Assembly (NCBI GenBank): GCA_902362365.1
Contig: CABIVQ010000068.1
Coordinates: 1 to 13,448, forward strand
From: Clostridiaceae bacterium
Lineage (GTDB): Bacteria; Bacillota; Clostridia; Peptostreptococcales; Peptostreptococcaceae
Direction: 5' to 3'
Length of the DNA stretch: 13,448 nucleotides
Part shown: positions 1 through 13,247 of the stretch, one piece after another
Numbering within the stretch: the first letter of the stretch is position 1
Layout of the letters: each line of letters begins with the position of its first letter
The notes under the pieces: model-generated
What the model was told of the DNA's origin: nothing
What the model saw: the letters and a program-made list of their open reading frames with translations, nothing else
The model's database searches: none
Program-made: the position numbers and the translations under genes

Positions 1-326
1 ACTAGTCACTATGGGTCTATTTTTTTGCAAAAAACATTTTACTTTATTTGGAAATTAAATTTAACTAGCACAATAGATTAATTATTCTATTTTTATATTA
101 TTGATTAAGATAGTTTTTTCAAAAAAAGTATGAAAAAGCTAAACTTTTCACAATGATATATTCTATATATAATTTAAAGTGTAAAGGATAGTTATTAAAC
201 ATCAATGTTAATGGGATACTTTTTTCACAAAATTTATGAAAAATCTCAGCTTTTATATAAATTTCTTTTATAATATAATGGGATTTGTAATAAACAGTAT
301 AATTTTGGAAAAAGGGAGGAGCATAT
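1..326. other. AT-rich leader upstream of the PTS operon, no gene seen
   Basis: No credible coding region lies here. The one reverse-strand reading frame (119-343) has no ribosome binding site and runs over the regulator's own start. The stretch holds a perfect 14-bp palindrome TTTTTTGCAAAAAA (21-34). It also holds an imperfect dyad TGAAAAAG/CTTTTCA (131-150), an imperfect dyad around ATTAAACAT/ATGTTAAT (194-212) and a dyad TTTTTCA/TGAAAAA (221-243), all ahead of the -10 boxes. These are plausible protein-binding sites for an activator-controlled promoter. I see no clear terminator of an upstream gene. Confidence 0.6.
251..279 (+). promoter_or_regulatory. Probable promoter of the PTS/peptidase operon
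   Basis: Two overlapping perfect TATAAT hexamers occur at 269-274 and 274-279. The hexamer 17 bp upstream of the second is TTTTAT (251-256), a poor match to TTGACA. A good -10 with a weak -35 is typical of promoters that need an activator, which fits the PRD-type activator encoded immediately downstream. The start of transcription would fall near 281-287, about 40 nt before the first gene. The assignment is by eye. Confidence 0.5.
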
Positions 327-2237
327 ATGCGAGAAAGTCTCATTCTTAAAGAGTTAAAAGACAGTGGTGATTATCTAAGTTTAGATTATTTCTCAAAGAA
401 ATTTGAAGTATCAACTAGAACAATAAGAAATGATATGAAGATAATCGCAATTGATGAAAAATGTAATGGGTTTAAAATAGAATATAAGAGTAAGCTGGGA
501 TATATTTTACAGATAGAAGATGAAATGAGATTTGAACGATATCTTAAAAGCTTATCCCCTGTTCCTTTAGATAGCCCAGAACAGCGATTAAATTCAATAA
601 CTGCATTACTTTTATTAAAAGATGATTATACAACTATAGAACAACTCAGCCAAGAGTTTTTAGTTAGCACATCTTTAATTAAAAATGATTTAAAAAGATT
701 AAGTCAAAAACTTAAAGATACAAATTTAGAATTAGAACGTAAAGCACATTATGGGATTAAGATAATAGGACCAATTAAATATAAACAGAAGATTCTATCA
801 GAAATTGCATCAAAAGATAATAGAAAGCTTGAAGAGTTTTATAGTAAATTTATCAGTGATAAGAAAATGGAAAATATAAAGACTACAGAGGAAAATATAC
901 TAGTTAAATATAAGCTAGAAGCAAACTTTGTAGAGCTTGAGGAATTAAAACTTCAATTAGTACTTTTATATATTAAAGCTAGTTTGAGGAGAAATAACGA
1001 AGAAAAAGAAATTACACAATTAAAGGTATCTTATAATGATATTATAATAGAACATATTATCAGAGAAGTTTTTTCTGAACTTCAATTTTTTATTACAGAT
1101 GAGGAAAAGGATTACCTTAGTGATTTTATAAAAAGAAAAACTAAAAATAAGGAATCTGAAATAAATAGTGCTCAAAAAGATAAGTTACAAGAACTTATAT
1201 ATAATTTCTTTGAAGAGGTAGATAAAGAATATAACACTTATTTCTTAGAAGATAAAGAATTTTTTAATTTATTATATCTTCATATAGCATCTTTAATAGA
1301 ACGTGTTAGGAGAGAACAAAATCTAAAAAATCCTTTCTCTCGTCAAATAAGTCATCAATATCCAACTGTATTTAATTTAGCAATTCAATTATCTAAGAGG
1401 CTAGAAAAAGAATACGGAATTAAGATTAATCAACATGAAATTGGATTTATAGCTACTCATATTGCAGTGCCTTTTGAAAAAAGACAAGGAGAAAATTTTA
1501 AACAAAAATACAAGATAGGAATAGTTTGTTCTTCGGGTGGAGGAAGTGCTTATTTAATTAAATTAAGATTACAAGAAATATTTCCAAATGCTGAGGTACA
1601 GAATTTTTCATTATTGGATAAAGATAAAATAGTAAACTTTTCACCAGATTTGATTTTTTCAATTACGGATTTAAGTTTTGAAGTGCATGCTCCTGTAATT
1701 TTAATAAAAGAGATACTAGATGATTTAGATTATTTAAAAATAAAGGAAAGTGTAAGATATGTAGATGATTTTGGAAAAGTAACTAATCCTAAACAGTATT
1801 TCTTAAGTTTATTTAGCAAGAAACATTTTACTTGTATTACACAAAAATCAGAATATAAAGGCATTCTTGACACGATGGCACAAAAAGTAGTTGAAGATGG
1901 GGCCTGTGCACCGAGTTATCCAAAAGATGTTTGGGAGCGAGAGAGTTTTCTAAATACAATATATACAAATGGGGTTACAATTCCACATCCAATTGAAATG
2001 ACAGGGAATAAAAACTTAATATCAGTAGGTCTTGTACAAACTGATATTGAATACGAAGAACGTAAACCTAAAATTATATTTATGGTTTCTTTAATAAAAG
2101 GAAATCTTGAATTACATAAACTAGTTACAAAGCATCTTAGTATTATTATGGAAGATGAAAGTGTTGTTAATAGATTAAGGGAATCACAGTCATATGAAGA
2201 ATTCATGCATAAATTAAAAAATAGCCTGGGGGGATAG
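327..2237 (+). CDS. PRD-domain PTS-responsive transcriptional activator (MtlR/LicR type)
   Basis: This is a cytoplasmic DNA-binding activator whose activity is set by PTS phosphorylation. The 636 residues fit the family. An N-terminal HTH lies at about 5-60 and a second HTH at about 90-145. Two PTS regulation domains follow (about 180-285 and 290-390), then a Gat/Bgl-like EIIB domain with Cys401 in a CSSGGGSA loop (about 395-480). A fructose/mannitol-type EIIA domain ends the protein (about 495-636), with His554 in TIPHP and His597. PRD2 keeps both usual histidines (His319, His378). PRD1 has Ile216 and Phe267 where they would be, so it probably is not phosphorylated in the usual way. The ATG follows AGGGAGGA by 6 nt. 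It is the first gene of the operon, 3 nt before the M42 peptidase, so it probably regulates its own transcript. No RNA antiterminator target is visible upstream, and the HTH architecture argues for a DNA-binding activator rather than a BglG-type antiterminator. Confidence 0.9.
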   Translation: MRESLILKELKDSGDYLSLDYFSKKFEVSTRTIRNDMKIIAIDEKCNGFKIEYKSKLGYILQIEDEMRFERYLKSLSPVPLDSPEQRLNSITALLLLKDDYTTIEQLSQEFLVSTSLIKNDLKRLSQKLKDTNLELERKAHYGIKIIGPIKYKQKILSEIASKDNRKLEEFYSKFISDKKMENIKTTEENILVKYKLEANFVELEELKLQLVLLYIKASLRRNNEEKEITQLKVSYNDIIIEHIIREVFSELQFFITDEEKDYLSDFIKRKTKNKESEINSAQKDKLQELIYNFFEEVDKEYNTYFLEDKEFFNLLYLHIASLIERVRREQNLKNPFSRQISHQYPTVFNLAIQLSKRLEKEYGIKINQHEIGFIATHIAVPFEKRQGENFKQKYKIGIVCSSGGGSAYLIKLRLQEIFPNAEVQNFSLLDKDKIVNFSPDLIFSITDLSFEVHAPVILIKEILDDLDYLKIKESVRYVDDFGKVTNPKQYFLSLFSKKHFTCITQKSEYKGILDTMAQKVVEDGACAPSYPKDVWERESFLNTIYTNGVTIPHPIEMTGNKNLISVGLVQTDIEYEERKPKIIFMVSLIKGNLELHKLVTKHLSIIMEDESVVNRLRESQSYEEFMHKLKNSLGG

Positions 2238-2240
2238 CAG

Positions 2241-3284
2241 ATGAATTTAGAGTTTCTAAAAAAACTATCAGAAGCAGATGGAATAGCATCTAATGAAGGG
2301 GAAGTTAGAAAAGTACTGTTAGATGAGTTAAAATCACACAGCGATAATATAGTTTGTGATGGATTGGGAAGTATTATTTTTTCAAAAGAAATAAATGAGA
2401 ATGCACCTAAAATTATGATTTGTGCTCATATGGATGAAGTAGGTTTCATAGTAAGAAGCATAAGTAAAGATGGAATGATCCATTTAATGGTAGTTGGTGG
2501 AGTTAAACCTTTAGCACAACACTTACAGAAAGTAAGGATAACAACTGAAAGTGGAGTTAAAATACCTGCGATTATAAATGGTACTTATAAAAATGAAGCA
2601 ACAGAAGATTTATATGCAGATATAGGCGCTTATACAGATGAAGAAGTATATAATTTAGGAATTCAAGTTGGAGATATGGTAACATATGCAACTGAGTTCG
2701 AAAAGTTTTCACTTCCTAATAGATTAGTAGGTAAAGCCTTTGATGATCGTCTAGGATGTTTCGTAATGGGAGAAGTACTAAAAAATTTAGATGATAAAAA
2801 ATTAAATAGTAATATTTACTTCGCAGCTACTAGTAGCGAAGAAGTAGGTATAAGAGGAGCAAAAACAGCAGCGCAATTAATAAACCCAGATGTTGTATTT
2901 GTAATAGATGTAGCCTGCCATAGAAATGAGTTTGTACGCGATCATACAAATAAAAAGCAAATTGATAAAGGTGTAATGCTTATGCATTTTGATAGAACAT
3001 TAGCACCAAATAAAAAAATGATAAATTATGTGAAGGAAACTGCAAGTAATATAAATGTTCCACTTCAACACGATATGTTCAAATCGGGTGGAACTGATGG
3101 AGGAGAAGCACACAAGGTAAATGAAGGAAAGCCAACTGTAGTTACTTGTCTTCCAGTTAGATATGGTCATTGTGCTTTTTCAATAGTAAGCCCAATAGAT
3201 CTTGAATTAATAATTAAGTTATATACAGAATTAATATTAAATTTTGATTCTGAGAAATACAAAGAAATAAAAAAATTTATCTAA
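2241..3284 (+). CDS. M42-family metallo-aminopeptidase (FrvX/YpdE-like)
   Basis: This is a predicted cytosolic dinuclear-metal aminopeptidase that trims N-terminal residues from short peptides; M42 enzymes usually form dodecameric shells. The 347 residues are a full family length. Expected metal ligands are present: His63 and Asp65 in AHMDEVG, Asp168 in AFDDR, Glu201, Asp223 and His310 in PVRYGHCA. Glu200 in TSSEEVG is the likely catalytic base. The C-terminal GGTDGGEAH and RYGHCA wording recalls E. coli FrvX and YpdE, both encoded beside PTS genes, more than the general M42 pattern of GGTDA and RYIHS; this comparison is from memory. The start lies 3 nt after the regulator stop, behind a G-rich site (2228-2234) overlapping the regulator's end, which suggests translational coupling. 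Older annotations call relatives endoglucanase (CelM), but the ligand set argues for peptidase. Confidence 0.88.
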   Translation: MNLEFLKKLSEADGIASNEGEVRKVLLDELKSHSDNIVCDGLGSIIFSKEINENAPKIMICAHMDEVGFIVRSISKDGMIHLMVVGGVKPLAQHLQKVRITTESGVKIPAIINGTYKNEATEDLYADIGAYTDEEVYNLGIQVGDMVTYATEFEKFSLPNRLVGKAFDDRLGCFVMGEVLKNLDDKKLNSNIYFAATSSEEVGIRGAKTAAQLINPDVVFVIDVACHRNEFVRDHTNKKQIDKGVMLMHFDRTLAPNKKMINYVKETASNINVPLQHDMFKSGGTDGGEAHKVNEGKPTVVTCLPVRYGHCAFSIVSPIDLELIIKLYTELILNFDSEKYKEIKKFI

Positions 3285-3298
3285 GAGGAGAAAAAGAC

Positions 3299-3613
3299 AT
3301 GGGATCAACAGAATTTGAAGTAATGGAACTTATAACTACTGCTGGGGAAAGTAAAGCTAAAGCTTTTGAAGCATTAAAAATGGTAAAGGATAAGAAGTTT
3401 GATGAGGCTAGAGAATTAATAGCTGAAGCTAGAAAAATAGATGTTCAAGCACATAGGATTCAAACTGAGCTAATAACTAGGGATATAGATGAAGATCAAG
3501 AAAGTCCTGCTATGGGATTATTAATGGTTCATGCTCAAGATCACTATATGACATCTCAGTTAGCAAAGGATTTAATAGAAACTTTAATAGAGGTACTTGA
3601 TGATACAAAGTAA
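3299..3613 (+). CDS. PTS lactose/cellobiose-family EIIA
   Basis: This is a small cytoplasmic phosphocarrier that passes phosphate from HPr to the EIIB encoded next. Its 104 residues match the family, which forms a trimer of three-helix bundles. The active-site histidine is His78 in MVHAQDH, and Asp81 of the same motif is the metal-binding residue at the trimer axis in the lactococcal IIALac structure. An amphipathic helix containing AHRIQTELI precedes it. A GAGGAG site at 3285-3290 directly follows the M42 stop and sits 8 nt before the ATG. The family is clear. The transported sugar (lactose, cellobiose, chitobiose or something else) cannot be read from this protein. Confidence 0.93.
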   Translation: MGSTEFEVMELITTAGESKAKAFEALKMVKDKKFDEARELIAEARKIDVQAHRIQTELITRDIDEDQESPAMGLLMVHAQDHYMTSQLAKDLIETLIEVLDDTK

Positions 3614-3655
3614 TTAAAAGAATTAATTGTAAAAATATAAATTAAAAATAATTTT

Positions 3656-3661
3656 AGGGGG
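3656..3661 (+). promoter_or_regulatory. Ribosome binding site deciding the EIIB start
   Basis: AGGGGG lies only 1 nt before the ATG at 3663 but 7 nt before the in-frame ATG at 3669. Normal spacing therefore selects 3669 as the start. Confidence 0.7.
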
Positions 3662-3668
3662 AATGATT

Positions 3669-4010
3669 ATGAAAATATTATTATGCTGTGCAGGTGGATT
3701 TTCTACTAACATGTTAATGCAAAATATGAAGAAGGTAGTTAAAGAAAGTACTAAACTAGATGAAAATGATTTTAAATTTACAGCTATACCAGCTGATTCA
3801 TTAGAAAGTGAGATAGATGATTGGGATATAGTGATGATTGGGCCACAAGTTTCTCACAAAACTGACTTTATAGAATCAATATGTAAGCCAAGAAATAAAC
3901 CTTTTGTTGTAATAGATAAAGATGTATATGGAAAAATGGATGGGGCAACAGTAATGAAATTAGCTTTAGTAACATATAAAAAACATGAATTAGCTAATGC
4001 AGCAAAATAG
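3669..4010 (+). CDS. PTS lactose/cellobiose-family EIIB
   Basis: This cytoplasmic 113-residue protein takes phosphate from EIIA onto a cysteine and hands it to the substrate bound in EIIC. The first strand and P-loop read KILLCCAGGFSTNML. By alignment with the CxxGMST pattern of E. coli ChbB, Cys7 is the phosphorylated residue and Cys6 an extra neighbour. The rest has the usual alternating strands and helices, with IVMIGPQVSH matching the family's second conserved strand. An upstream in-frame ATG at 3663 would add two residues but is too close to the ribosome binding site. A 55-nt AT-rich gap separates it from EIIA and contains a small hairpin with arms AAATTA and TAATTT (3639-3654). That gap is the longest in this operon, with no terminator in it. 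Confidence 0.93.
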   Translation: MKILLCCAGGFSTNMLMQNMKKVVKESTKLDENDFKFTAIPADSLESEIDDWDIVMIGPQVSHKTDFIESICKPRNKPFVVIDKDVYGKMDGATVMKLALVTYKKHELANAAK

Positions 4011-4034
4011 TGGAGATAAAAATTAATAAATAAT

Positions 4035-4040
4035 AGGGGG
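4035..4040 (+). promoter_or_regulatory. Ribosome binding site deciding the EIIC start
   Basis: AGGGGG abuts the ATG at 4041 with no spacer but lies 6 nt before the in-frame ATG at 4047. The second ATG is the likely start. Confidence 0.7.
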
Positions 4041-4046
4041 ATGACA

Positions 4047-5372
4047 ATGTTCGCAAAGTTTGAAGCATTTATGAATCGTGTATTTACACCTATAGCTCAC
4101 AAAGTGGATAATCAACGTCACTTAAGTGCTATAAAAGCAGGAATGGTAGCAATGACTCCATTCACTATACTAGGTAGTTTCTTTGCTATAATTCCAGCAC
4201 TTCCAAATATGATAGGTGAAAATAACCCAGTAAGTCAATTTATATTAAATAACGCAGAAATATTAGATTTACCAGTAACTCTTTCGATAGGATTAATCGG
4301 ACTGTATGCTTGTATGTGTATATCTTTCAACTTAGGTAATCATTACAAATTATATATTCCAGGTTGTGTTACTCTTTCTACTTTTGCTTTCTTATTCTTA
4401 GTATCATCGTTTACACCAGATGGAACTTTGGAACTTGGAAACTTAGGCGCTAAAGGTTTATTTACAGGTATGCTTACAGCTATAGGAGCAGTAGAACTTT
4501 ATAATTTATGTAAGAAGAAAAATCTTACAATTAGGATGCCAGAAGGTGTACCAGACTTCGTGTCTAAATCATTTGAATTAATACCTACAACTATAATCGT
4601 TGGTGGTACATTCATCGTATTACGTTTTGTATCCTTAAATGTTTTTGGAGAACTACCGCCACAAATACTTACTAGATTCTTAGAACCGTTAGTAGGTAGT
4701 ATGGATAACCCATGGGCAGTATTGGCATTAAATTTCTGTATATGTACGGTATTCTTCTTTGGTATACACTCATCAGTTTTCAGCCCAATAACTCGTCCGA
4801 TAATGGTTACATTTATAGCTGAAAATATAGCTGCTATGCAAGCTGGTCAGCCAATACCTCACTTCTATACAGCAGGTGCATCTAGTGCATTCTTCGGATT
4901 TACAGGCGCAGGTATAACTATAGGTTGTGTAATAGCGTGTATGTTATCTAAAAATAAGAGTTTCAGAAAGATTGGTCAAGTATCATTATTCCCATCATTA
5001 TTCGGTATAAATGAACCAATATTATTTGGTGCTCCAATAATATTAAATCCAATAATGTTTATACCATTTGTATTTGGTGGAGCAATAATAGGTACATTAC
5101 CTATGTTCTTAATGCACTACGGATGGCTAGCTAAGCCAGTATTTGATCCTCCATATGTTGGAGTATTCCTTGAGGGGTTCTTAACAAATGGAGATTGGCG
5201 TTCAATAGTAGCAAATGCAATACAATTAGTATTAACAGTATTACTATATATGCCATTCTTTAAAATAATGGAACGTCAAGCTAAAGCTAAATTAGAAGAA
5301 AGTAAATGTGCTAAAAATATATTTACAGAAGATGAAGCTGATTTATTAGATGATTTAGACTTAGATTTCTAG
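4047..5372 (+). CDS. PTS lactose/cellobiose-family EIIC permease
   Basis: This is the membrane channel of the PTS, which moves the substrate across the cytoplasmic membrane while EIIB phosphorylates it. The 441 residues contain about ten hydrophobic segments, beginning with an amphipathic N-terminus followed by AIKAGMVAMTPFTILGSFF. The two residues that contact the substrate in the Bacillus cereus ChbC structure have clear counterparts: His241 in FGIHSSVFSP and Glu323 in GINEPILFGAP. The tail is strongly acidic (DEADLLDDLDLDF). Codon choice differs from the neighbours: six of nine arginines use CGT and about half the phenylalanines use TTC by hand count. This may reflect selection for high expression. 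The stop overlaps the next gene's ribosome binding site. The substrate is unknown. No 6-phospho-glycosidase gene is adjacent, so a simple beta-diglucoside is not an obvious choice. Confidence 0.93.
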   Translation: MFAKFEAFMNRVFTPIAHKVDNQRHLSAIKAGMVAMTPFTILGSFFAIIPALPNMIGENNPVSQFILNNAEILDLPVTLSIGLIGLYACMCISFNLGNHYKLYIPGCVTLSTFAFLFLVSSFTPDGTLELGNLGAKGLFTGMLTAIGAVELYNLCKKKNLTIRMPEGVPDFVSKSFELIPTTIIVGGTFIVLRFVSLNVFGELPPQILTRFLEPLVGSMDNPWAVLALNFCICTVFFFGIHSSVFSPITRPIMVTFIAENIAAMQAGQPIPHFYTAGASSAFFGFTGAGITIGCVIACMLSKNKSFRKIGQVSLFPSLFGINEPILFGAPIILNPIMFIPFVFGGAIIGTLPMFLMHYGWLAKPVFDPPYVGVFLEGFLTNGDWRSIVANAIQLVLTVLLYMPFFKIMERQAKAKLEESKCAKNIFTEDEADLLDDLDLDF

Positions 5373-5375
5373 GAG
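5371..5375 (+). promoter_or_regulatory. Ribosome binding site overlapping the EIIC stop
   Basis: AGGAG begins inside the EIIC TAG stop (5370-5372). It touches the ATG at 5376 but is 6 nt from the in-frame ATG at 5382, which is therefore preferred. The overlap suggests translational coupling. Confidence 0.7.
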
Positions 5376-5381
5376 ATGGGT

Positions 5382-6452
5382 ATGAATAGTAGATTAGATA
5401 AAATTAAAAAATTAATAGAAGCAAAAAATATAGATGCATTACTAATAAAAGGTAAAAGTAATAAGCGATACATTGGCGCTTTAACAGGTAGTGGAGTATA
5501 TGTTTTAGTTACAAAAGATAAGGTTTATCAAATTTTAGACGGAAGATACATTGATGAAGCAAATAAAAAAACAACTGGATTCGAAAATAAAGTTGTTCCA
5601 CAAGGATCATATATACCAACTATAATAGATTTACTTAAAGAATTATCTATGCAAAAGGTTGGAATAGAGAGCCAAGCTATGAGTATAAAAGAGTATATTA
5701 CTTTAAAAGAGCATAACTTTGATATTGAATTAATAACTAATGAGCTAGGAAAAGTAAGATCAGTAAAGTCTAAAGAAGAAATTGAAATTATTAGAAAAGC
5801 TTGTGAGTTAACAGATGAAATATTTGAAGAAGTTATTTCTGAAATAAAAGAAGGTATGACAGAGTTAGAGGTTTCTGCATTACTTCATTATTGGACTTTG
5901 AGAAAGGGTGCAAGTGGTATGGCTTTTGATCCAATTGTTGCATCTGGTGAAAGGGGGGCCATGCCACATGGCCGTCCTACAACGAAAAAATTAAAAAGAA
6001 ATGAAGCTATAACCATTGATTTCGGTATTGTTTATAAAGGGTATCAATCTGATATGACTCGTACGATATCTATAGGAGAACCACCAAAAATAATTCAAGA
6101 GATATATAAAGCAGTTTTAAAGGCTCAGGAGTTGGCAATAGAAGGAATTCGAGAAGGAGTATCTGCTAGAAGTGTAGATAAAATTGCTAGAGATAGTATA
6201 ACAGAATCAGGCTTTGGTGAGTATTTTACTCATGGCTTAGGTCATGGAATGGGACTTGGTGATGGTGAAGTACCTACGCTAAACTCTAGAAGTGAAGATA
6301 TTCTAGAAGAAGGCATGGTTATGTCATGTGAACCAGGTATATATATTCCTGATGTAGGTGGAGTACGAATAGAAGATGATATCGTAATAATAAATGGAAA
6401 AGGTGTTTCACTCAATAAGACGTCAAAAGAATGGATTATACTAGGAGAGTAA
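5382..6452 (+). CDS. M24-family peptidase (Xaa-Pro aminopeptidase/dipeptidase type)
   Basis: This predicted cytosolic pita-bread metallopeptidase has 356 residues. A creatinase-like N-terminal domain spans about 3-125 and the catalytic domain about 130-356. All five metal ligands are present: Asp213 (TIDFG), Asp224 (SDMTR), His288 (HGLGHG), Glu317 (SCEPG) and Glu331 (RIEDD). His196 in MPHGR and His284 also match active-site histidines of the family. The histidine normally seven residues after the metal-binding His (GHG..L..HE; His361 in E. coli PepP) is Gly295 here, in GHGMGLGDGEVP. The metal site is thus intact, but substrate handling may differ from proline-specific enzymes. E. coli YpdF, an M24 aminopeptidase, is also encoded beside an M42 enzyme (YpdE) and PTS genes, which supports a peptide-processing role here. 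The next gene begins 2 nt after its stop. Confidence 0.88.
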   Translation: MNSRLDKIKKLIEAKNIDALLIKGKSNKRYIGALTGSGVYVLVTKDKVYQILDGRYIDEANKKTTGFENKVVPQGSYIPTIIDLLKELSMQKVGIESQAMSIKEYITLKEHNFDIELITNELGKVRSVKSKEEIEIIRKACELTDEIFEEVISEIKEGMTELEVSALLHYWTLRKGASGMAFDPIVASGERGAMPHGRPTTKKLKRNEAITIDFGIVYKGYQSDMTRTISIGEPPKIIQEIYKAVLKAQELAIEGIREGVSARSVDKIARDSITESGFGEYFTHGLGHGMGLGDGEVPTLNSRSEDILEEGMVMSCEPGIYIPDVGGVRIEDDIVIINGKGVSLNKTSKEWIILGE

Positions 6453-6454
6453 AA

Positions 6455-7672
6455 ATGAAATATGATTTTGATAAAGTAATAAATCGAAAAGAAAGCCATT
6501 GTAGAAAATGGAGTAATAAGGTTTTAAAAGATAAGTTTGACTTAGATGAAACTGCAATTCCAATGGATTTAGCTGATATTGATTTTGAATGTTCACCAGC
6601 AATAAAGAGTGCAATAGTTAATAGGGCATCAGTGGGGGATTATAGTTATACTTTTGTAGAAGATGAATTTTATGAATCTGCAGTTAATTGGAATAAAAGA
6701 AGATTTAATATTGATATTGAAAAAGAATGGATAAAATTAACTTTTGGTACGGTTTCAACTTTACATTATATAGTTCAGGCATATACAAAAGAGGGTGAAG
6801 GTGTATTAATTAATACACCTGCGTATGATCCTTTTGCAGAAGCAGTAGAAAATAATAATAGGAAACTATATTGTAGTTCATTAAGATTAATTGATAATAG
6901 ATATTACCTAGATTTTGATGATATTGAAGCTAAAATGAAGGATGGTAATATCAAAGTATATATATTCTGTAGTCCACAAAACCCTTCAGGACGTATATGG
7001 ACAAAGGATGAATTGTACAAATTATCGGAGTTATGTTTAAAATATAATGTGCTATTAGTAAGTGATGAAATACACAGAGATGTAGTATTTAAGGGACATG
7101 AGTTTATATCTTTATGGAATGCACATCCAGATATTCATAATAATAGTTTAATATGTATATCTCCAAATAAAGGATTTAATTTAGGAGGACTTAAAACTTC
7201 ATATGTTATAGCAAAAAATAAAGAAGTAAGAGAAATTTTATTAGGACAGTTAAAAAGAAATTCAATAACATCTCCAAATGTATTTGCTATACCAGCAATT
7301 ACAGCAGCTTACAATGATAGCGAAGAATGGTTAGATGAAATGACTAAGTATGTTGAAGGAAATTTTGAAATAGTGTACGATTTCTTTGAAAAAAATATAC
7401 CTAAGGCAAAGGTAATGAAATCAGACTCTTCTTTCTTAGCATGGATAGATGTAAGAGAATTATTTGAAGATGAAGAAGAAGCAAATAAATTTTTTAAAGC
7501 TGCAAAGGTAACTATGGTAGTAGGAAGTTATTTTGTTAAAGATGGAGAAGGATTTATTCGTCTTAATATAGGATGTCCTAGAGCTACATTAAATGAAGCT
7601 CTTAACAGAATTAAAGAGACATATAAAAAACTTTATCATAATAAATTTAGTGTAAGTATGAATATAAATTAG
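6455..7672 (+). CDS. PatB/MalY-type PLP-dependent cysteine-S-conjugate beta-lyase (aminotransferase fold I)
   Basis: This is a predicted cytosolic PLP enzyme that cleaves C-S bonds of cystathionine or cysteine conjugates to thiol, pyruvate and ammonia. The 405 residues contain Lys239 in SPNKGFNLGGLK, the Schiff-base lysine. They also include Asp204 in SDEIHRD, Asn176 in SPQNPSGR and Arg369 in FIRLNIG for the carboxylate. The N-terminal DFDKVINRKES followed by RKW is a variant of the PatB/MalY opening, and PMDLADIDF matches the usual P.W.ADMDF with Leu for Trp. The ATG at 6455 is preferred because AGGAG at 6443-6447 lies 7 nt before it; an ATG at 6431 would overlap the M24 gene without a site. 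MalY of E. coli also lies next to a PTS gene (malX). An aminotransferase activity cannot be excluded. It is the last gene of the operon. Confidence 0.85.
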   Translation: MKYDFDKVINRKESHCRKWSNKVLKDKFDLDETAIPMDLADIDFECSPAIKSAIVNRASVGDYSYTFVEDEFYESAVNWNKRRFNIDIEKEWIKLTFGTVSTLHYIVQAYTKEGEGVLINTPAYDPFAEAVENNNRKLYCSSLRLIDNRYYLDFDDIEAKMKDGNIKVYIFCSPQNPSGRIWTKDELYKLSELCLKYNVLLVSDEIHRDVVFKGHEFISLWNAHPDIHNNSLICISPNKGFNLGGLKTSYVIAKNKEVREILLGQLKRNSITSPNVFAIPAITAAYNDSEEWLDEMTKYVEGNFEIVYDFFEKNIPKAKVMKSDSSFLAWIDVRELFEDEEEANKFFKAAKVTMVVGSYFVKDGEGFIRLNIGCPRATLNEALNRIKETYKKLYHNKFSVSMNIN

Positions 7673-7675
7673 ATA

Positions 7676-7723
7676 AAAAAGAGTTGTTCAAGTGATATAT
7701 TTCATTTGGATAACTCTTTTTTT
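7676..7723 (+). terminator. Rho-independent terminator of the PTS operon
   Basis: The arms at 7676-7695 and 7702-7721 pair over 20 bp, with three G-U wobbles and a 6-nt loop. The stem begins with A5 and ends in an unbroken T-run (7717-7723). It starts 4 nt after the lyase stop. The A-rich 5' foot could allow weak action on reverse transcripts too. Confidence 0.92.
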
Positions 7724-7807: not shown

Positions 7808-7835
7808 TTGACTAGAAATAAAAAGATGGTATAAT
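7808..7835 (+). promoter_or_regulatory. Sigma-A promoter of the fhu operon
   Basis: TTGACT (7808-7813) and TATAAT (7830-7835) are separated by 16 bp, one mismatch in total from consensus. Transcription should start near 7842, giving a leader of about 69 nt. Confidence 0.85.
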
Positions 7836-7851
7836 GAATTCATAAATCAGA

Positions 7852-7866
7852 TGATAACAATTATCA
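7852..7866. promoter_or_regulatory. Fur box
   Basis: TGATAACAATTATCA differs from the 7-1-7 Fur consensus TGATAATnATTATCA at one base and has perfect 6-bp inverted arms (TGATAA/TTATCA). It sits about 10-25 nt after the predicted transcription start, so iron-loaded Fur would block RNA polymerase leaving the promoter. Its position just ahead of siderophore-uptake genes strongly supports the reading. Confidence 0.85.
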
Positions 7867-7897
7867 ATATTGAGAGCTTATATAAATAAAATAAATT

Positions 7898-7902
7898 GGA
7901 GG
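7898..7902 (+). promoter_or_regulatory. Ribosome binding site deciding the GTG start of fhuD
   Basis: GGAGG lies 8 nt before GTG 7911. A TTG at 7896 is in frame but overlaps this site, so it cannot be the start. Confidence 0.8.
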
Positions 7903-7910
7903 ATATAAAA

Positions 7911-8855
7911 GTGAAAAGGTTAAAATCATTAATGCTATTAGGCGTAACAATAGCTACACTAGGATTAGTTACTGGGTGTTCGGGAAACAGTAACAATGAA
8001 GTTTCAAAAGATGAAGCACAAACAAGAATAGTACAATCAGTAAAAGGAGAAGTTGAAATACCAGCTGATCCTAAAAGAATAGTTGATATATCTGGGAGTA
8101 GTGAAGAGCTAGCTCTATTAGGACATACTCCAGTAGGTACAGCCAATGTAGACTCATATGAAACAGACAAAGTTCCATCATATGTACAAGATAAATTAGG
8201 TGATGCAAAAGTAGTTGGTCACTCAATGATGGATACAATGGATATAGAAGCAATACTTGCTGCAGAGCCAGATTTAATAATAATGGCTCCAAGACAAGAA
8301 AAAATATACGATCAATTAAAAGAAATAGCTCCAGTTGTTATGTTAGAAGATAGATCAAACGATTGGGAAGCAAAACTTAAGGATGTAGCGGCATTATTCG
8401 GACAAGAAGAAGAAGCTCAAAAGTGGTTAGATAATTACTATGTAAAAGCAGAAGAAATAGGTAAGGAAATAAAAGAAGCTAACGGGGACCAAACTTACTT
8501 AACAGTATTAGCATCATCAGGACAATTTATGGTATTCACTGAAGGTGGTATAGGAACTGTATTAAAAGAAGATATGAAATTACCTCAACCAGCTAATATG
8601 CCTGAGCAAGATAGCATAACATTACCAACTGTTACTATGGAAGGTTTAACAGAAATAGATGCAGATCACATAATAGTTATAGCTACAGAATCAGATAAAG
8701 CTGATTTAGAGGCAAGTACGGTATGGCCACAAATAAGAGCTGTTAAAGAAGGTAACGTAACAATACTTGATGCAAGTCCATACTTCAGTCAAGCGTACAA
8801 TCCAATAGGAAGAGAATTATTATTACAATCAATCAAAGATGAAGTTGTAAAATAG
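7911..8855 (+). CDS. fhuD: Iron-siderophore (hydroxamate-type) ABC transporter substrate-binding lipoprotein
   Basis: This is the extracellular receptor of a ferric-siderophore importer, anchored to the outer face of the membrane by a lipid. Translation starts at GTG, giving 314 residues. A Lys/Arg start (KRLK) and hydrophobic core end in the lipobox VTGC, so Cys23 is the lipidated residue. The mature protein is a class III (TroA/FhuD-like) binding protein: an N-lobe beginning near RIVDISGSSEELALLG (about 56-71), a long linker helix around ALFGQEEEAQKWLDNYY, and a C-lobe ending in YFSQAYNPIGRELLL. This ending and the fhuBGC neighbours point to hydroxamate siderophores such as ferrichrome, but the ligand cannot be proved from sequence. 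It is controlled by the Fur box in its leader. A stem-loop follows its stop. Confidence 0.88.
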   Translation: MKRLKSLMLLGVTIATLGLVTGCSGNSNNEVSKDEAQTRIVQSVKGEVEIPADPKRIVDISGSSEELALLGHTPVGTANVDSYETDKVPSYVQDKLGDAKVVGHSMMDTMDIEAILAAEPDLIIMAPRQEKIYDQLKEIAPVVMLEDRSNDWEAKLKDVAALFGQEEEAQKWLDNYYVKAEEIGKEIKEANGDQTYLTVLASSGQFMVFTEGGIGTVLKEDMKLPQPANMPEQDSITLPTVTMEGLTEIDADHIIVIATESDKADLEASTVWPQIRAVKEGNVTILDASPYFSQAYNPIGRELLLQSIKDEVVK

Positions 8856-8867
8856 TAAATATATAGA

Positions 8868-8905
8868 AGTAGGTGGTGAAAAACTATAAATTTTCATCAC
8901 CTACT
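8868..8905 (+). terminator. Stem-loop between fhuD and fhuB (attenuator or 3'-end stabiliser)
   Basis: Arms 8868-8882 and 8891-8905 pair over 15 bp with a single G-U, around an 8-nt loop. The sequence after the stem (ATTTCAGTTTAT) has no continuous T-run, so termination is probably partial. In ABC importers such hairpins often protect the receptor mRNA and give more receptor than permease. The fhuD-fhuB gap is 157 nt, by far the largest in this operon. Confidence 0.75.
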
Positions 8906-8941
8906 ATTTCAGTTTATAGAAAAATTATATTTTAAAAATAA

Positions 8942-8969
8942 TTGTATTAAAGTTTTGTGGGTATATATT
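8942..8969 (+). promoter_or_regulatory. Possible weak promoter before fhuB
   Basis: TTGTAT (8942-8947) and TATATT (8964-8969) are spaced by 16 bp. The match is weak and such pairs are common in AT-rich DNA. No Fur box is visible here. If real, it would give iron-independent basal permease expression. Confidence 0.2.
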
Positions 8970-9012
8970 AATTATAGTACTTCAGTTAACTTTGATGTAA
9001 GGAGGATGAAGA

Positions 9013-10026
9013 ATGGCTAAACCTAAAAGAAAAACCTTAGCTTATTCATTAATGATAATAGGAATAATATTGCTTGTAGTTGGGATAGGAATGTCCATAT
9101 CTCTTGGAGCAAAACAAATAGATTTTTCAACAATAGTACAAAGCTTATTTACAAATGATAATGATGTAAATATTAAAATAATCAGAGATGTTAGAATACC
9201 TAGAGCAGTTGCAGCAGCACTTGTGGGTGGTTTTTTAGCAGTGGCTGGAGCAATAATGCAGGGAATAACAAGAAATCCTATAGCGGAACCATCTGTAATG
9301 GGAATTACGCAAGGTGCTACATTTATGATAGCAGTAGCATTTGTATTACAAAGAATTTATCCTAATTTAGTCATAGGAAGTTTCGGGCTTATGATATTTG
9401 CCTTTCTTGGGGCTAGCATAAGTGGACTTTTAGTATATTTTGTAAGTTCAAGGTCAGCTAGAAAAGTAGACCCAGTAAAACTTGCTCTTGCAGGAACAGC
9501 CTTAGGTACTTTATTAATATCTTTAGCAATGGGAATATCAATGTACTTCAATCTATCGCAACAATTAAGTTTTTGGATTTCAGGAGGATTAGTAAGTGCT
9601 AAGTGGCAAGGTGTAAAATTATTATTTACAGTTGGTGGAATTGCATTTATAGGAGCTATAATAATGGCACCGAAAATAACAATCCTTAGTTTAGGAGAAG
9701 AAGTAGCAATAGGATTAGGTCAAAGAATAAATTTAGTAAGATTTATATGTTTAATGATAGTAATAGCTTTAACTGGAGCATCAGTTTCAGTAGCTGGTAA
9801 CATAGTATTTGTAGGTCTTATAGTTCCTCAGATAGCTAAAGCTATAGTAGGATCAGACTATAAATATATAATACCAAGCTCAATGATATTAGGTTCGGTG
9901 TTATTAGTATACAGTGATATTATGGCTAGAATGATAAACCATCCTTATGAGACACCAATAGGGTCATTAACAGCATTATTAGGAGTCCCTATGTTTATAT
10001 ACCTTGTGAGAAAGGATACGAAATAA
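9013..10026 (+). CDS. fhuB: Iron-siderophore ABC transporter permease (FecCD/BtuC family)
   Basis: This is one half of the membrane channel for the ferric-siderophore importer. The 337 residues begin with a basic segment and a first hydrophobic helix (about 11-31), and have the roughly ten-helix pattern of the BtuC/FecCD family. Family signatures seen are DVRIPRAVAAALVG (about 59-72), MQGITRNPIAEPSVMG (82-97), FWISGG (187-192), LGEEVAIGLG (227-236) and GNIVFVGLIVPQIAK (262-276), the loop expected to dock on the ATPase. The usual PHI.R in that loop reads PQIAK. The start follows AAGGAGG by 7 nt. FhuG begins 3 nt after its stop and is a diverged paralogue, so the channel is most likely a FhuB-FhuG heterodimer, unlike the fused FhuB of E. 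coli. Confidence 0.9.
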   Translation: MAKPKRKTLAYSLMIIGIILLVVGIGMSISLGAKQIDFSTIVQSLFTNDNDVNIKIIRDVRIPRAVAAALVGGFLAVAGAIMQGITRNPIAEPSVMGITQGATFMIAVAFVLQRIYPNLVIGSFGLMIFAFLGASISGLLVYFVSSRSARKVDPVKLALAGTALGTLLISLAMGISMYFNLSQQLSFWISGGLVSAKWQGVKLLFTVGGIAFIGAIIMAPKITILSLGEEVAIGLGQRINLVRFICLMIVIALTGASVSVAGNIVFVGLIVPQIAKAIVGSDYKYIIPSSMILGSVLLVYSDIMARMINHPYETPIGSLTALLGVPMFIYLVRKDTK

Positions 10027-10029
10027 ATT

Positions 10030-11043
10030 ATGAGTATGAATAAAAATAAAAAGTTTGCCCTAGTTATAGGGATTTTGATAGCATTAATATTTACTACATT
10101 TTTAGTTAGCTTGAATTTAGGATCATTATCTATAGAACCAATGGATGTTATAAAAACATTAATAGGGCAAGGATCTAAAAGTCAAGAAATAGCTATATTT
10201 AAGTTAAGATTACCGAGAATAGTAATAGGAATATTAGTAGGTACGGCATTAGCTACAGCGGGTACTATTTTACAAGGAGTTACTAAAAATGACTTAGCAG
10301 ACTCAGGTATATTAGGTATAAACTCAGGTGCAGCACTATTTGTTGTAGTATACATCTATCTTATGAATGGGAATGTATATGATGGAATAAGCAATACAAC
10401 AATATTTACAATGCCTATAGTAGCTCTAACAGGGGCAATATTTGGAGCATTTTTAATTTATATGCTTGCATGGAAAAATGGTATAAGCTCATCAAGATTA
10501 TTACTTATAGGAATAGGTATAAACGTTGCATTTACATCAATACTTACAATTTTCCAACTTAAATTTACAACTCAGGAATTTAATAGAGTAATGGCTTGGA
10601 CATCAGGAAGTATATGGGGATCAAATTGGAAATATGTAATGGCAGTATTACCTTTTATAATAATATTTATGGCGTTAACAATATACAAATCTAGATATTT
10701 AGATGCATTAAATTTAGGTGATGAAGTTGCAACTGGATTAGGAATAGAAGTTGAAAAAGAGAGAAGAAAATTAATAGTATATGCAGTAATTTTAGCGGGT
10801 GTTGCTACATCAGTAGCTGGAAGTATAGGCTTTTTAGGTTTGGTTGCACCACATATTGCTCGTAAATTAGTAGGTCCTAAGCATAAAAAGTTAATTCCTG
10901 CAGCGGCTCTTGTTGGAACGTTAATATTATTAGTTGCAGATACGATATCTAGGAATTTAATAGCTCCTATGGAGATTCCAGTAGGAATAGTTGTAGCAAT
11001 AATAGGTGTTCCGTACTTTATTTATTTAATGTTAGCAGAATAA
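10030..11043 (+). CDS. fhuG: Iron-siderophore ABC transporter permease (FecCD/BtuC family)
   Basis: This is the second membrane subunit, also 337 residues and aligned with FhuB throughout. Matching signatures are FKLRLPRIVIGILVG (57-71), LQGVTKNDLADSGILGINSGA (81-101), WTSGSIWG (190-197), LGDEVATGLG (229-238) and GSIGFLGLVAPHIAR (264-278), the coupling loop with the standard PHIAR. It has a poor ribosome binding site of its own: the nearest AAAGGA (10011-10016) is 13 nt from the ATG and lies inside fhuB. With a 3-nt gap after fhuB, this suggests translation is coupled to fhuB, which would keep the two channel halves equal. An in-frame ATG at 10036 is also possible but is further still from the site. 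Confidence 0.9.
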   Translation: MSMNKNKKFALVIGILIALIFTTFLVSLNLGSLSIEPMDVIKTLIGQGSKSQEIAIFKLRLPRIVIGILVGTALATAGTILQGVTKNDLADSGILGINSGAALFVVVYIYLMNGNVYDGISNTTIFTMPIVALTGAIFGAFLIYMLAWKNGISSSRLLLIGIGINVAFTSILTIFQLKFTTQEFNRVMAWTSGSIWGSNWKYVMAVLPFIIIFMALTIYKSRYLDALNLGDEVATGLGIEVEKERRKLIVYAVILAGVATSVAGSIGFLGLVAPHIARKLVGPKHKKLIPAAALVGTLILLVADTISRNLIAPMEIPVGIVVAIIGVPYFIYLMLAE

Positions 11044-11096
11044 GAGATTTATTTAGTAAGAATTAGGTGGCTTTAAATAGCTAGGAGGAGACAAAT

Positions 11097-11882
11097 ATGA
11101 ATTGTATAAGTACTAAAAATTTAAATATTTCATATGGAAATTTATATATAGTAAAAGATTTAAATTTAAATATACCAAAAGGAAAGATAACTACAATAAT
11201 AGGCGCTAATGGTTGTGGAAAATCAACAGTATTAAAAACTATAGCTAGAATCATACAACCTAAAAGTGGTGATATTTATATAAATGATAAAAATATAAAA
11301 GAGCAAAGTTCAAAAGATTTAGCGAAAACAATGGCTGTTCTTCCTCAAAGTCCTCAAGCTCCAAGTGGACTTACTGTAGAAGAGCTAATAGCTTATGGAA
11401 GATTTCCTCATCAAAAAGGATTTGGAAAGTTAAAAAAAGAAGATACAGATATAGTTACATGGGCGTTAGAGGTAACTGGTATAGATGAATTTAGAGATAG
11501 ACCGATAGAAGCTTTATCAGGTGGACAAAGACAAAGAGCTTGGATAGCAATGGCTTTGGCTCAACAAACAGATATACTTGTACTTGACGAACCAACAACT
11601 TATTTAGATTTAGCACATCAACTTGAGGTATTAAATTTACTAGAAGAATTAAATAGAACTCAAGGTACAACTATAGTCATGGTAATACATGAACTTAATA
11701 ATGCGGCTAGATTTGCAGATCATATGATAGGTGTAAAAAAAGGAAAGATAGTATGTCAAGGTGATGCATACGAAGTAATGACAAAGGAAAATCTTAGAGA
11801 ATTGTTTAATATAGATGCAGAAATTGTACAAGACCCTAGAACTCAAAAGCCAGTATGCATAACTTACGACATGGTAGGATAG
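11097..11882 (+). CDS. fhuC: Iron-siderophore ABC transporter ATPase
   Basis: This cytoplasmic ATPase powers the FhuB-FhuG channel. All nucleotide-binding motifs of the 261-residue protein are intact: Walker A GANGCGKST (36-44), Q-loop Gln84, signature LSGGQ (140-144), Walker B LVLDEP (161-166) with catalytic Glu165, D-loop TYLD (168-171) and switch His198. The pattern GRFPHQKGFGKL before the signature and TYLDLAHQ after Walker B are typical of FepC/FhuC-type iron importers. The ATG follows AGGAGGAG by 6 nt, and a 53-nt gap separates it from fhuG with no terminator. The MATE gene starts 9 nt after its stop. Confidence 0.93.
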   Translation: MNCISTKNLNISYGNLYIVKDLNLNIPKGKITTIIGANGCGKSTVLKTIARIIQPKSGDIYINDKNIKEQSSKDLAKTMAVLPQSPQAPSGLTVEELIAYGRFPHQKGFGKLKKEDTDIVTWALEVTGIDEFRDRPIEALSGGQRQRAWIAMALAQQTDILVLDEPTTYLDLAHQLEVLNLLEELNRTQGTTIVMVIHELNNAARFADHMIGVKKGKIVCQGDAYEVMTKENLRELFNIDAEIVQDPRTQKPVCITYDMVG

Positions 11883-11891
11883 GTAGAATTT

Positions 11892-13247
11892 ATGGATAAT
11901 CAACAAGCATTAAAAGAAGAAAAAATAGGAAAATTATTAATAAAATACTCAGTACCAGCTATATTAGCAATGATGGTAACATCTTTATATAATACTGTAG
12001 ATAGAGCTTTTATAGGATCTATAAAAGATGTAGGAGCACTTGCTATATCAGGGCTTGGAGTAACAATGCCTTTATTTACGATTTTAGGAGCATTTTGTGT
12101 TGCAATCTCAATTGGAGGTAGCACAAATATATCGATAAAGCTTGGTGAAGGTAATAAAGAAGAGGCAGAGGAAATTTTAGGAAGTACAGTTGCTTTAGAA
12201 TTTGCAGTAGCAATAGGAATATTACTTGTAGGAATTTTCTTTTTAGATGACATACTTTATATATTTGGAGCAAGTAAACACACTATTAAATATGCTAGAG
12301 AATATATGAGTGTAATATTTGCAGGTGCGTGGTTTAACTTACCTGGATTTGCTTTAAATAGTGCAATAAGAGCTGAAGGGAATCCCAAGCTAGCAGCAAA
12401 GATGATGATAATAAGTTGTATTCTAAACTTAATATTAGACCCAATATTTATATTTGGATTTGGTATGGGGATAAGAGGAGCAGCTGTAGGAACTGTAATA
12501 TGCCAATTAGTAGTATGTCTTTGGTCTACACATTATTTTACAGTAGGAAAATCGAATTTAAAATTAAAAGTAAAGAATATAAAATTAGATAAGAAGTATT
12601 TAAAGCTTATTGTAGTAATAGCGTTGACTCCATTTTGTATGGAGCTTGCAGCAGGATCGATACACTTAGTTACAAATAGAGTATTAAAAATATATGGTGG
12701 AGATTTAGCAATAGGTGCGATGACAGCAGTGACATCAATATCTTTAATGTTCTTAATGCCAGTGTTTGGACTAAGTCAAGGAATGCAAACAATAATTGCA
12801 TATAACCATGGTGCAAAGCAACCAGAGCGTACAAGAAAAGCAATATTATTAGCTGTAATAGCTGCAACTACTATACTAACTGTTGGATGTATACTTATTA
12901 AATTATTCCCAGAAGTATTTGTAGGGATATTTACAAAGGATGATGAACTTATGAATTTAGCTATCAATGGTATAAATATAAACTTAGTAACACTTCCAAC
13001 AATAAGTATTTCTATTTTAGGAGCAGTATATTTCCAATCAATTGGTAGTGCTAAAATATCTATGTTTTTAAGTTTATTAAGACAAGTAATAATATTAATA
13101 CCAGTAATACTTTTAGTACCTAAATTCTATGGACTGAATGGAGTATGGGCTTCACAACCAATAGCAGATATAGGTGCAATGGTTATAGTAGGGTTATTTT
13201 TAGTAAGAGAATTCAAGAAAAAAGAAAGTATAGTGGAGAATATATAA
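11892..13247 (+). CDS. MATE-family efflux transporter (MepA-like)
   Basis: This is a predicted cation-driven exporter in the cytoplasmic membrane. The 451 residues form about twelve hydrophobic segments in two homologous MatE halves. The first begins at LLIKYSVPAILAMMVTSLYN (about 15-34) with TVDRAFIG after it. The second begins near ALTPFCMELAAGSIHLVTNR. AIRAEGNPKLAAKM and LNLILDPIFIFGFGMGIRGAA are characteristic of the MepA/DinF-like MATE branch. It starts 9 nt after fhuC with no terminator or promoter between, and its weak AGG-type site overlaps the fhuC stop, so it should be co-transcribed with the Fur-controlled uptake genes. The substrate is unknown. Annotated relatives are called multidrug pumps, and export of a siderophore, iron chelator or toxic uptake by-product is an inference from position only. 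Confidence 0.9.
   Translation: MDNQQALKEEKIGKLLIKYSVPAILAMMVTSLYNTVDRAFIGSIKDVGALAISGLGVTMPLFTILGAFCVAISIGGSTNISIKLGEGNKEEAEEILGSTVALEFAVAIGILLVGIFFLDDILYIFGASKHTIKYAREYMSVIFAGAWFNLPGFALNSAIRAEGNPKLAAKMMIISCILNLILDPIFIFGFGMGIRGAAVGTVICQLVVCLWSTHYFTVGKSNLKLKVKNIKLDKKYLKLIVVIALTPFCMELAAGSIHLVTNRVLKIYGGDLAIGAMTAVTSISLMFLMPVFGLSQGMQTIIAYNHGAKQPERTRKAILLAVIAATTILTVGCILIKLFPEVFVGIFTKDDELMNLAINGININLVTLPTISISILGAVYFQSIGSAKISMFLSLLRQVIILIPVILLVPKFYGLNGVWASQPIADIGAMVIVGLFLVREFKKKESIVENI

Follow-up and report, generated by a model that had tools for sequence, protein, structure and literature searches.

A recurrent lactose-family phosphotransferase operon with two metallopeptidases and a PatB/MalY-family lyase, possibly for dismantling sugar-carrying peptides

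Operons that pair a sugar phosphotransferase system (PTS) with a peptidase, or a PTS with a lyase, are already known singly. In the Escherichia coli K-12 records, fryB-fryC-ypdF-ypdE-fryA, frvABXR, malXY and the sgc operon with its sgcX have the expected layouts, and the three that a preliminary description of the DNA discussed here had cited as precedents—fry-ypdEF, frvABXR and malXY—are present as it claimed. We know of no natural substrate for either fry-ypdEF or malXY. The DNA in question is a stretch of 13,448 nucleotides from a Clostridiaceae bacterium (contig CABIVQ010000068.1; ‘the window’ below means this whole stretch), and it contains an operon in which a lactose-family PTS, two metallopeptidases of families M42 and M24, and a PatB/MalY-family lyase stand side by side.

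This gene cluster is already in print, because the legend to Figure 1 of a study of Lactobacillus sakei lists the same set. For strain LT-13 it gives, as LACBS_00568-00576, PRD, PRD, aminopeptidase, lactose/cellobiose IIA, IIB and IIC, RDD, aminopeptidase and MalY, in a region of about 8 kb that is missing from strain LK-145 (PMC5845896). MalY is treated as a racemase and beta-lyase in the available parts of that paper, and the other genes as PTS-related; the peptidases are not discussed there (PMC5845896). Searches of the open-access literature found no paper on the conservation or function of the cluster. As far as those searches go, what is new is the conserved union of these genes and the presence of two PTS-linked lyase lineages; a fructose-family operon with M24 and lyase, and a parallel PTS with glycosylasparaginase, also appear to be undescribed.

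A conserved gene set around one EIIC clade

Seven genes on the + strand of the window, at 327–7672, encode in order a PRD regulator, M42, EIIA, EIIB, EIIC, M24 and the lyase, with intergenic gaps of 3, 14, 49, 30, 3 and 2 bases, the last calculated from a revised lyase start (Table 1). The preliminary description had read this as one tight unit of seven named families closed by a terminator, and the open reading frames (ORFs), the Pfam and NCBIfam models and a predicted hairpin agree. The lyase most likely starts at the ATG at 6455, and not where its ORF opens at 6431, because AGGAG precedes that ATG directly behind the M24 stop, and because homologues agree.

The set recurs widely. A genome scan with the EIIC alignment and two peptide patterns confirmed 150 stretches, the best 80 of which were kept as loci, and within 6.5 kb around their EIICs we find M42 at all 80, EIIB at 79, EIIA at 78, the lyase at 77, the PRD regulator at 76, M24 at 75 and an RDD-type protein at 19. 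Because the loci were fetched by EIIC, these counts are conditional on the EIIC clade. The hosts include Romboutsia, Clostridioides, Peptacetobacter, Terrisporobacter and Clostridium on the Clostridia side; Enterococcus, Streptococcus, Lactococcus, lactobacilli, Listeria grayi and Bacillus on the Bacilli side; and, further afield, gut Erysipelotrichia-type genera, Collinsella/Olsenella/Olegusella and Vibrio/Photobacterium. We take these hosts to span three phyla. They rule out that the set is confined to a single strain, and the M42, lyase and M24 counts, maintained through several gene orders, show the association to be real and conserved.

Gene order varies: M42 first, as in the window; M42 between M24 and the lyase, in Enterococcus, Listeria grayi and Bacillus; and EIIA ahead of M42, in L026 and L028. 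Some genes are divergent, namely the lyase and EIIA in Vibrio and the lyase alone in Collinsella. Contig ends cut off the side of the missing genes in L055, L038 and L066, the last of which lacks M24 on its open side as well, and L054 is without PRD, EIIA and EIIB. The RDD-type membrane protein of 19 loci, about 200 amino acids long and identified by Pfam on one member, lies at the operon end or in the EIIC–M24 gap (e.g. L031:13210-13866) and may serve to export a product. In L012 (M42), L022 (EIIC), L027 (PRD) and L063 (several), operon genes are split in two frames, perhaps by decay or by assembly error.

The EIIC at the center of these loci is of a distinct kind. That of the window, 98% identical to an EIIC named Romboutsia ilealis, scores above the cut-off of the NCBIfam lacE model (TIGR00410, 259.6 versus 236) and below those of the cellobiose, lactose and chitobiose equivalogs (TIGR00359, 259.6 versus 434; TIGR00394, 170.9 versus 614; PRK10297, 125.6 versus 760). 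Among PDB sequences it matches a single entry at E 0.001, 3qnq, which is annotated as a cellobiose-specific IIC component. The His and the Asn-Glu-Pro motif that align with 3qnq, presumably sugar contacts, are retained across the clade; the Asn-Glu-Pro core is also found in nearly all control EIICs, and the His in many. In a tree of 65 chosen representatives the clade occupies its own long branch (SH-aLRT 100); a single control row falls within it, and that row represents another copy of the same locus.

Twenty locus-bearing genomes contain at least 150 lactose-family EIICs. All three enzymes lie within 8 kb of 22 of the 150 listed, and none of the three near 123; the other five comprise three with M42 only and two with M24 only. 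This count used the strongest matches (57 M42, 58 lyase and 58 M24), weak or partial rows being dropped. In random samples, searched at E 1e-60 with up to four candidates scored per genome, an EIIC match above 400 bits was found in one of 398 Bacilli genomes—the center itself—and two of 391 Clostridia genomes, the center and G894. The EIIC of G894 is a new member of the clade and comes with the full set, PRD-M42-IIA-IIB-IIC-M24-lyase-RDD. Thirteen of 19 non-clade EIIC rows (31–40% identity to the window EIIC) were read, and no M42, M24 or lyase was present in 12–18 kb; this held when profiles were re-run over all six frames, a repeat made because, in GC-rich records, the simple gene caller misses genes overlapped by longer opposite frames. 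By these random-sample and neighborhood counts the system is rare in random samples and scattered, and the combination of all three enzymes goes with a single EIIC clade.

Enzyme lineages and the layout of the unit

The window lyase scores above the PatB C-S lyase model (TIGR04350, 373 versus 340), and its pyridoxal phosphate (PLP) lysine is aligned in the motif SPNKGFN. In a tree of 56 representatives chosen from 99 aligned lyases, the PTS-linked enzymes form two lineages, type 1, to which the window lyase belongs, and type 2, which includes E. coli MalY; members of both keep their PLP lysine as well as the Tyr and Arg motifs. In lineage 1, the lyase of a Clostridioides difficile fry-like operon groups with three lactose-PTS lyases (support 99/99). 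In lineage 2, MalY has the Vibrio lyases of this system as its sister group (100/100); the lineage also includes lyases linked to MalX in C. difficile, Clostridium and Bacillus, many lactose-family-linked ones and, on a long and unsure branch, the mannose-family-linked lyase of L163. Thirteen lyases are without a PTS neighbor, in the sense that nothing adjoining them matches any of 27 reference proteins; 12 of these cluster elsewhere, and L157, on a long branch, joins lineage 1. L159, counted among the 13, has an EIIB-like gene about 2 kb off on the opposite strand. Lineage 1, the window and L148 lyases among its members, has Asn before the PLP lysine and Gly or Ala after it (SPNK[GA]FNLGGLK), positions at which Ser or Thr prevails in the other lyases. 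Thirty-six lyases lie away from any listed EIIC, and 20 of their regions were read, among them L152, chosen as a second copy of L148. The L165 region contains a lyase seen only by six-frame search, which stands outside the alignment and the tree.

The window M42 scores above PRK09961 (524.6 versus 412) and the window M24 below PRK09795 (254 versus 393), models that we take to represent YpdE and YpdF, respectively. Metal ligands are intact throughout the M42 (82 rows) and M24 (77 rows) alignments, which take in the window and L001, save for gaps in one row of each. In a tree of 52 chosen M42 rows, E. coli YpdE falls among the M42 enzymes of this system, within a group of 22 rows supported at 100 and with an inner branch at 88.

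It had been suggested that the gene set be followed across PTS families, and partial sets do appear there: M24 and lyase beside a fructose-family PTS, and lyase beside glucose- and mannose-family PTSs. The first is an operon of C. difficile (L148, 7627-14053, and L152) of the form PRD-IIA-IIB-IIC-M24-lyase, with fructose-family EIIA and EIIC. Its EIIC, used as a query, had matches in 27 of 148 Clostridia genomes and 187 of 250 Bacilli genomes, and E. coli FryC in two of 229 Gammaproteobacteria genomes; most of all these matches were far weaker. Because ten further regions were read by profiles and had no M24, M42 or lyase, the two C. difficile genomes are the only ones in which the fry-like operon with lyase was seen. 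Six of the ten contain a gene for about 870–930 amino acids, the L242 and L244 copies of which resemble alpha-mannosidase by eye. Elsewhere, MalX–lyase pairs occur with a SIS-domain protein (L151:7109-10479 and L155:5719-9218), as does a mannose-family PTS with SIS protein and lyase (L163:7235-11723). A second PTS unit directly follows the lyase operon at L061:8286-12691 and L064:14801-19215, consisting of PRD, IIA, a small IIB-like protein, a membrane protein that looks ascorbate-like by eye, and a SIS protein.

Within the window, the regulator combines HTH_11, Mga, PRD and EIIA_2 domains. Promoter-like consensus matches, such as the one ahead of it in Table 1, occur at chance frequency (82 found, 81.8 expected from shuffles). 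The one match to a catabolite-control (cre) site has a mismatch, lies on the opposite strand within a gene and is no more than chance would give. An Rfam scan of the window found no RNA family reaching its gathering score. An iron-uptake-like unit (7896-11882) and then a MATE exporter (11892-13247) lie 3' of the operon; ahead of the former, 7808-7866 contains a promoter-like TTGACT-16-TATAAT (11/12), and 7852-7866 a near-palindrome, TGATAACAATTATCA, that resembles a Fur box by eye.

Table 1. Coordinates of the operon and its flanking signals in the window
Feature	Position	Strand	Basis
Promoter-like site TTTATA-16-TATAAT upstream of regulator	252..279	+	consensus match only
PRD-type transcriptional regulator with C-terminal EIIA_2 domain	327..2237	+	ORF, Pfam domains
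M42 aminopeptidase, YpdE type	2241..3284	+	Pfam, PRK09961; metal ligands and catalytic Glu present
PTS EIIA, lactose/cellobiose family	3299..3613	+	PTS_IIA
PTS EIIB, lactose/cellobiose family	3663..4010	+	PTS_IIB
PTS EIIC, lactose/cellobiose family, distinct clade	4041..5372	+	PTS_EIIC, TIGR00410; His243 and Asn324-Glu325-Pro326 conserved
M24 metallopeptidase, Xaa-Pro dipeptidase/aminopeptidase type	5376..6452	+	M24 and Creatinase_N; five metal ligands present
PatB/MalY-family PLP beta-lyase, PTS-linked lineage type 1 (SPNKGFNLGGLK)	6455..7672 (start most likely)	+	Aminotran_1_2, TIGR04350
Intrinsic terminator-like hairpin, 20 pairs, closing unit	7676..7721	+	hairpin prediction

What the operon may take apart

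We read the unit as an inducible operon for the uptake and dismantling of sugar-carrying peptides or amino acids, in which the lyase cuts from the amino-acid side, and we give this reading a probability of about 0.5. To judge from its family and its conserved core residues, the lactose-family EII would import the conjugate and phosphorylate its sugar. M42 and the Xaa-Pro-type M24, both with catalytic residues intact, would trim flanking residues in the cytosol, as their families suggest, and the PLP beta-lyase would then cut on the amino-acid side to yield pyruvate, ammonia and either sugar phosphate, from O-linked serine, or thiosugar phosphate, from S-linked cysteine. The regulator, whose family is PTS-controlled, would couple expression to substrate. 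A phospho-glycosidase would be missing from the unit because, we propose, the lyase breaks the bond at the amino acid. The preliminary description had envisaged conjugate import, trimming and release of a thiol; the conserved association speaks for this outline, and the thiol released from an S-conjugate becomes one of several outcomes that would fit.

An S-link fits the C-S lyase family and, by analogy, the purified L. sakei enzyme, which in the accessible account cleaves L-Cys, cystine and cystathionine and has no lyase activity on L-Ser (PMC5845896). An O-link would suit the Xaa-Pro type of M24, which would act on Pro-rich O-glycosylated stretches, and would yield a sugar phosphate that the cell could use. 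A narrower version of this second case, tentative and rather unlikely, is a route for O-glycosyl-Ser/Thr peptides without a glycosidase: import with 6-phosphorylation, trimming of the Pro-rich flanks and beta-elimination from serine. If true, central metabolism would receive sugar phosphate, pyruvate and ammonia from it, and malXY and fry-ypdEF would be partial versions of it, which would give both a substrate class.

The best clue to the function of the lyase operon is, by analogy, a sister PTS. Two of the three M42-only EIIC rows, L168 and L169, are accompanied by two M42 genes and an Asparaginase_2-family protein, and L168 by an M20 peptidase and an RDD protein as well. The Asparaginase_2 protein of L168 is probably a glycosylasparaginase, because its score is 217 bits for that enzyme and does not exceed 134.6 for isoaspartyl peptidases or other relatives. 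Glycosylasparaginase cuts N-acetylglucosamine from asparagine. Matches to the L168 protein occur in 13 of the 20 genomes and reach at least 390 bits in 11. In ten of the 20 a gene of this kind is no more than 8 kb from a lactose-family EIIC, and in eight no more than 0.7 kb, a proximity count that used 28 of the 150 listed EIICs. In Enterococcus xiangfangensis (L060:16448-21315), genes for a regulator, an M20-like protein, a glycosylasparaginase-like protein, EIIB and EIIC begin 1.7 kb after the lyase operon. Perhaps this sister PTS serves N-linked glyco-asparagine. The general idea would then be that several PTS families import sugar-conjugated amino acids or peptides, the bond being cut from the amino-acid side by an enzyme that takes the place of a glycosidase: a beta-lyase here, a glycosylasparaginase in the parallel operons.

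A number of observations weigh against the conjugate reading. The lyases of this system are not one group, and four changes are needed on the tree. Asp or Asn directly after the catalytic Tyr, a feature that speaks for the reading, is found in 72 of the 79 lactose-PTS lyases (the window and L001 included), in six of seven other-PTS lyases and in none of the 13 others; this correlation is, however, confounded by kinship, because 12 of the 13 non-PTS lyases are in one group and two of the seven other-PTS rows, L148 and L152, are near copies. The M24 tree (47 rows) is too weakly resolved to place YpdF, and neither shows nor excludes a single M24 origin. Neither lyase nor M24 is strictly required near EIIC, since Photobacterium L053 and L057 have no lyase (L053 no PRD either) and L020, L036, L059 and L066 have no detectable M24; and single peptidases also occur near other lactose-family EIICs, as the three M42-only and two M24-only cases show. 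An S-linked substrate would leave a thiosugar phosphate that no enzyme in the operon would use. Finally, because L. sakei MalY is inactive on L-Ser and is, in the account available, a broad amino-acid racemase, its relevant activity may be something other than the lyase reaction (PMC5845896).

The alternative that survives best, although unlikely, is an ordinary disaccharide PTS, with the peptidases and lyase co-regulated to scavenge nitrogen and sulfur, and hydrolysis of the sugar phosphate left to an enzyme encoded elsewhere. The EIIC is after all of the lactose/cellobiose family and keeps the Asn-Glu-Pro core and the His of the controls. Yet the three enzymes together go with one EIIC clade, and 123 of the 128 other listed EIICs have none of them. 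As the preliminary description had said, no phospho-glycosidase accompanies the PTS: ten queries (six GH4, and one each for GH1, NagB, glycosylasparaginase and SIS) found no match within 7.4 kb of EIIC in 82 loci, the hydrolase queries having covered the EIIC surroundings. The nearest matches were a glycosylasparaginase in L060, at 7.4 kb, a weak SIS in L011 and a GH4 in L039, both at 8.8 kb, and a NagB in L045, at 9.2 kb. In contrast, the six of the 13 non-clade relatives that were scanned for glycosidases each have a GH4 enzyme, confirmed by Pfam.

An improbable alternative makes the lyase a regulator or an amino-acid racemase, in an operon that handles D-amino-acid-containing or cell-wall peptides. 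L. sakei MalY racemizes many amino acids, D-amino acids are raised as its possible native ligands, and E. coli MalY is cited as acting on MalT, so far as the accessible text goes (PMC5845896). Two distinct lyase lineages fill this slot with PLP lysine, Tyr and Arg motifs retained, and according to the same text L. sakei LT-13 has no MalT homologue (PMC5845896); both points tell against this alternative, and a racemase is still compatible with either.

Salvage of a thiol cofactor is more doubtful, and we hold it to be highly improbable. Mycothiol and bacillithiol are pseudo-disaccharide thiols with cysteine on glucosamine. Such a thiol, or its S-conjugate, would be imported, the aminopeptidase would detach S-substituted cysteine from its glucosamine for the lyase to split, so that the lactose-type EII, an aminopeptidase and the C-S lyase each get one step. 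The activity of the L. sakei lyase on Cys, cystine and cystathionine, as given in the available part of the report, would agree (PMC5845896), but the Xaa-Pro type of M24 is left without a clear role. Glycated (Amadori) peptides or amino acids, a candidate of the preliminary description, are the least probable: SIS, the fold of known deglycases, occurs in proteins adjoining two malXY-like loci and the mannose-family PTS–lyase locus and in the PTS units just 3' of the lyase operon in L061 and L064, but the window operon has no SIS protein, the window no deglycase, and the one SIS query found none within 7.4 kb of EIIC in the 82 loci. Glucosinolates were rejected as substrates, the published route, in the portion available, using a glycosidase (PMC8660893).

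Comparison with known systems

The L. sakei LT-13 cluster has the same gene set as the window, judged by the listing in the figure legend and not by sequence, and differs in its RDD gene and its two PRD genes (PMC5845896). The fry-like operon of C. difficile shares with the window a PRD regulator, M24 and a lyase of the window's lineage, but its EII is of the fructose family and there is no M42 in the region. The glycosylasparaginase PTS of L168, L169 and L060 likewise combines a lactose-family EII, peptidases and a cleaver that acts on the amino-acid side; its EIIC is on another branch (L168, L169), however, and glycosylasparaginase and M20 replace lyase and M24.

The E. coli operons each match a part. 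In fryBC-ypdF-ypdE-fryA a PTS accompanies M24 and M42, as in the window, and YpdE falls within the M42 group of the system; but that operon has a fructose-like EII and no lyase, whereas EIIA, EIIB and EIIC of the window are all of the lactose family. In malXY a PTS enzyme accompanies a beta-lyase, MalY, whose sisters are the Vibrio lyases of this system; but the EII is MalX, which we take to be of the glucose family, the regulator is MalI, and no peptidase gene occurs within the stretch read, whereas the window has separate lactose-family EIIA, EIIB and EIIC and a lyase of the other lineage. One conserved operon thus unites enzyme lineages that E. coli splits between fry-ypdEF and malXY.

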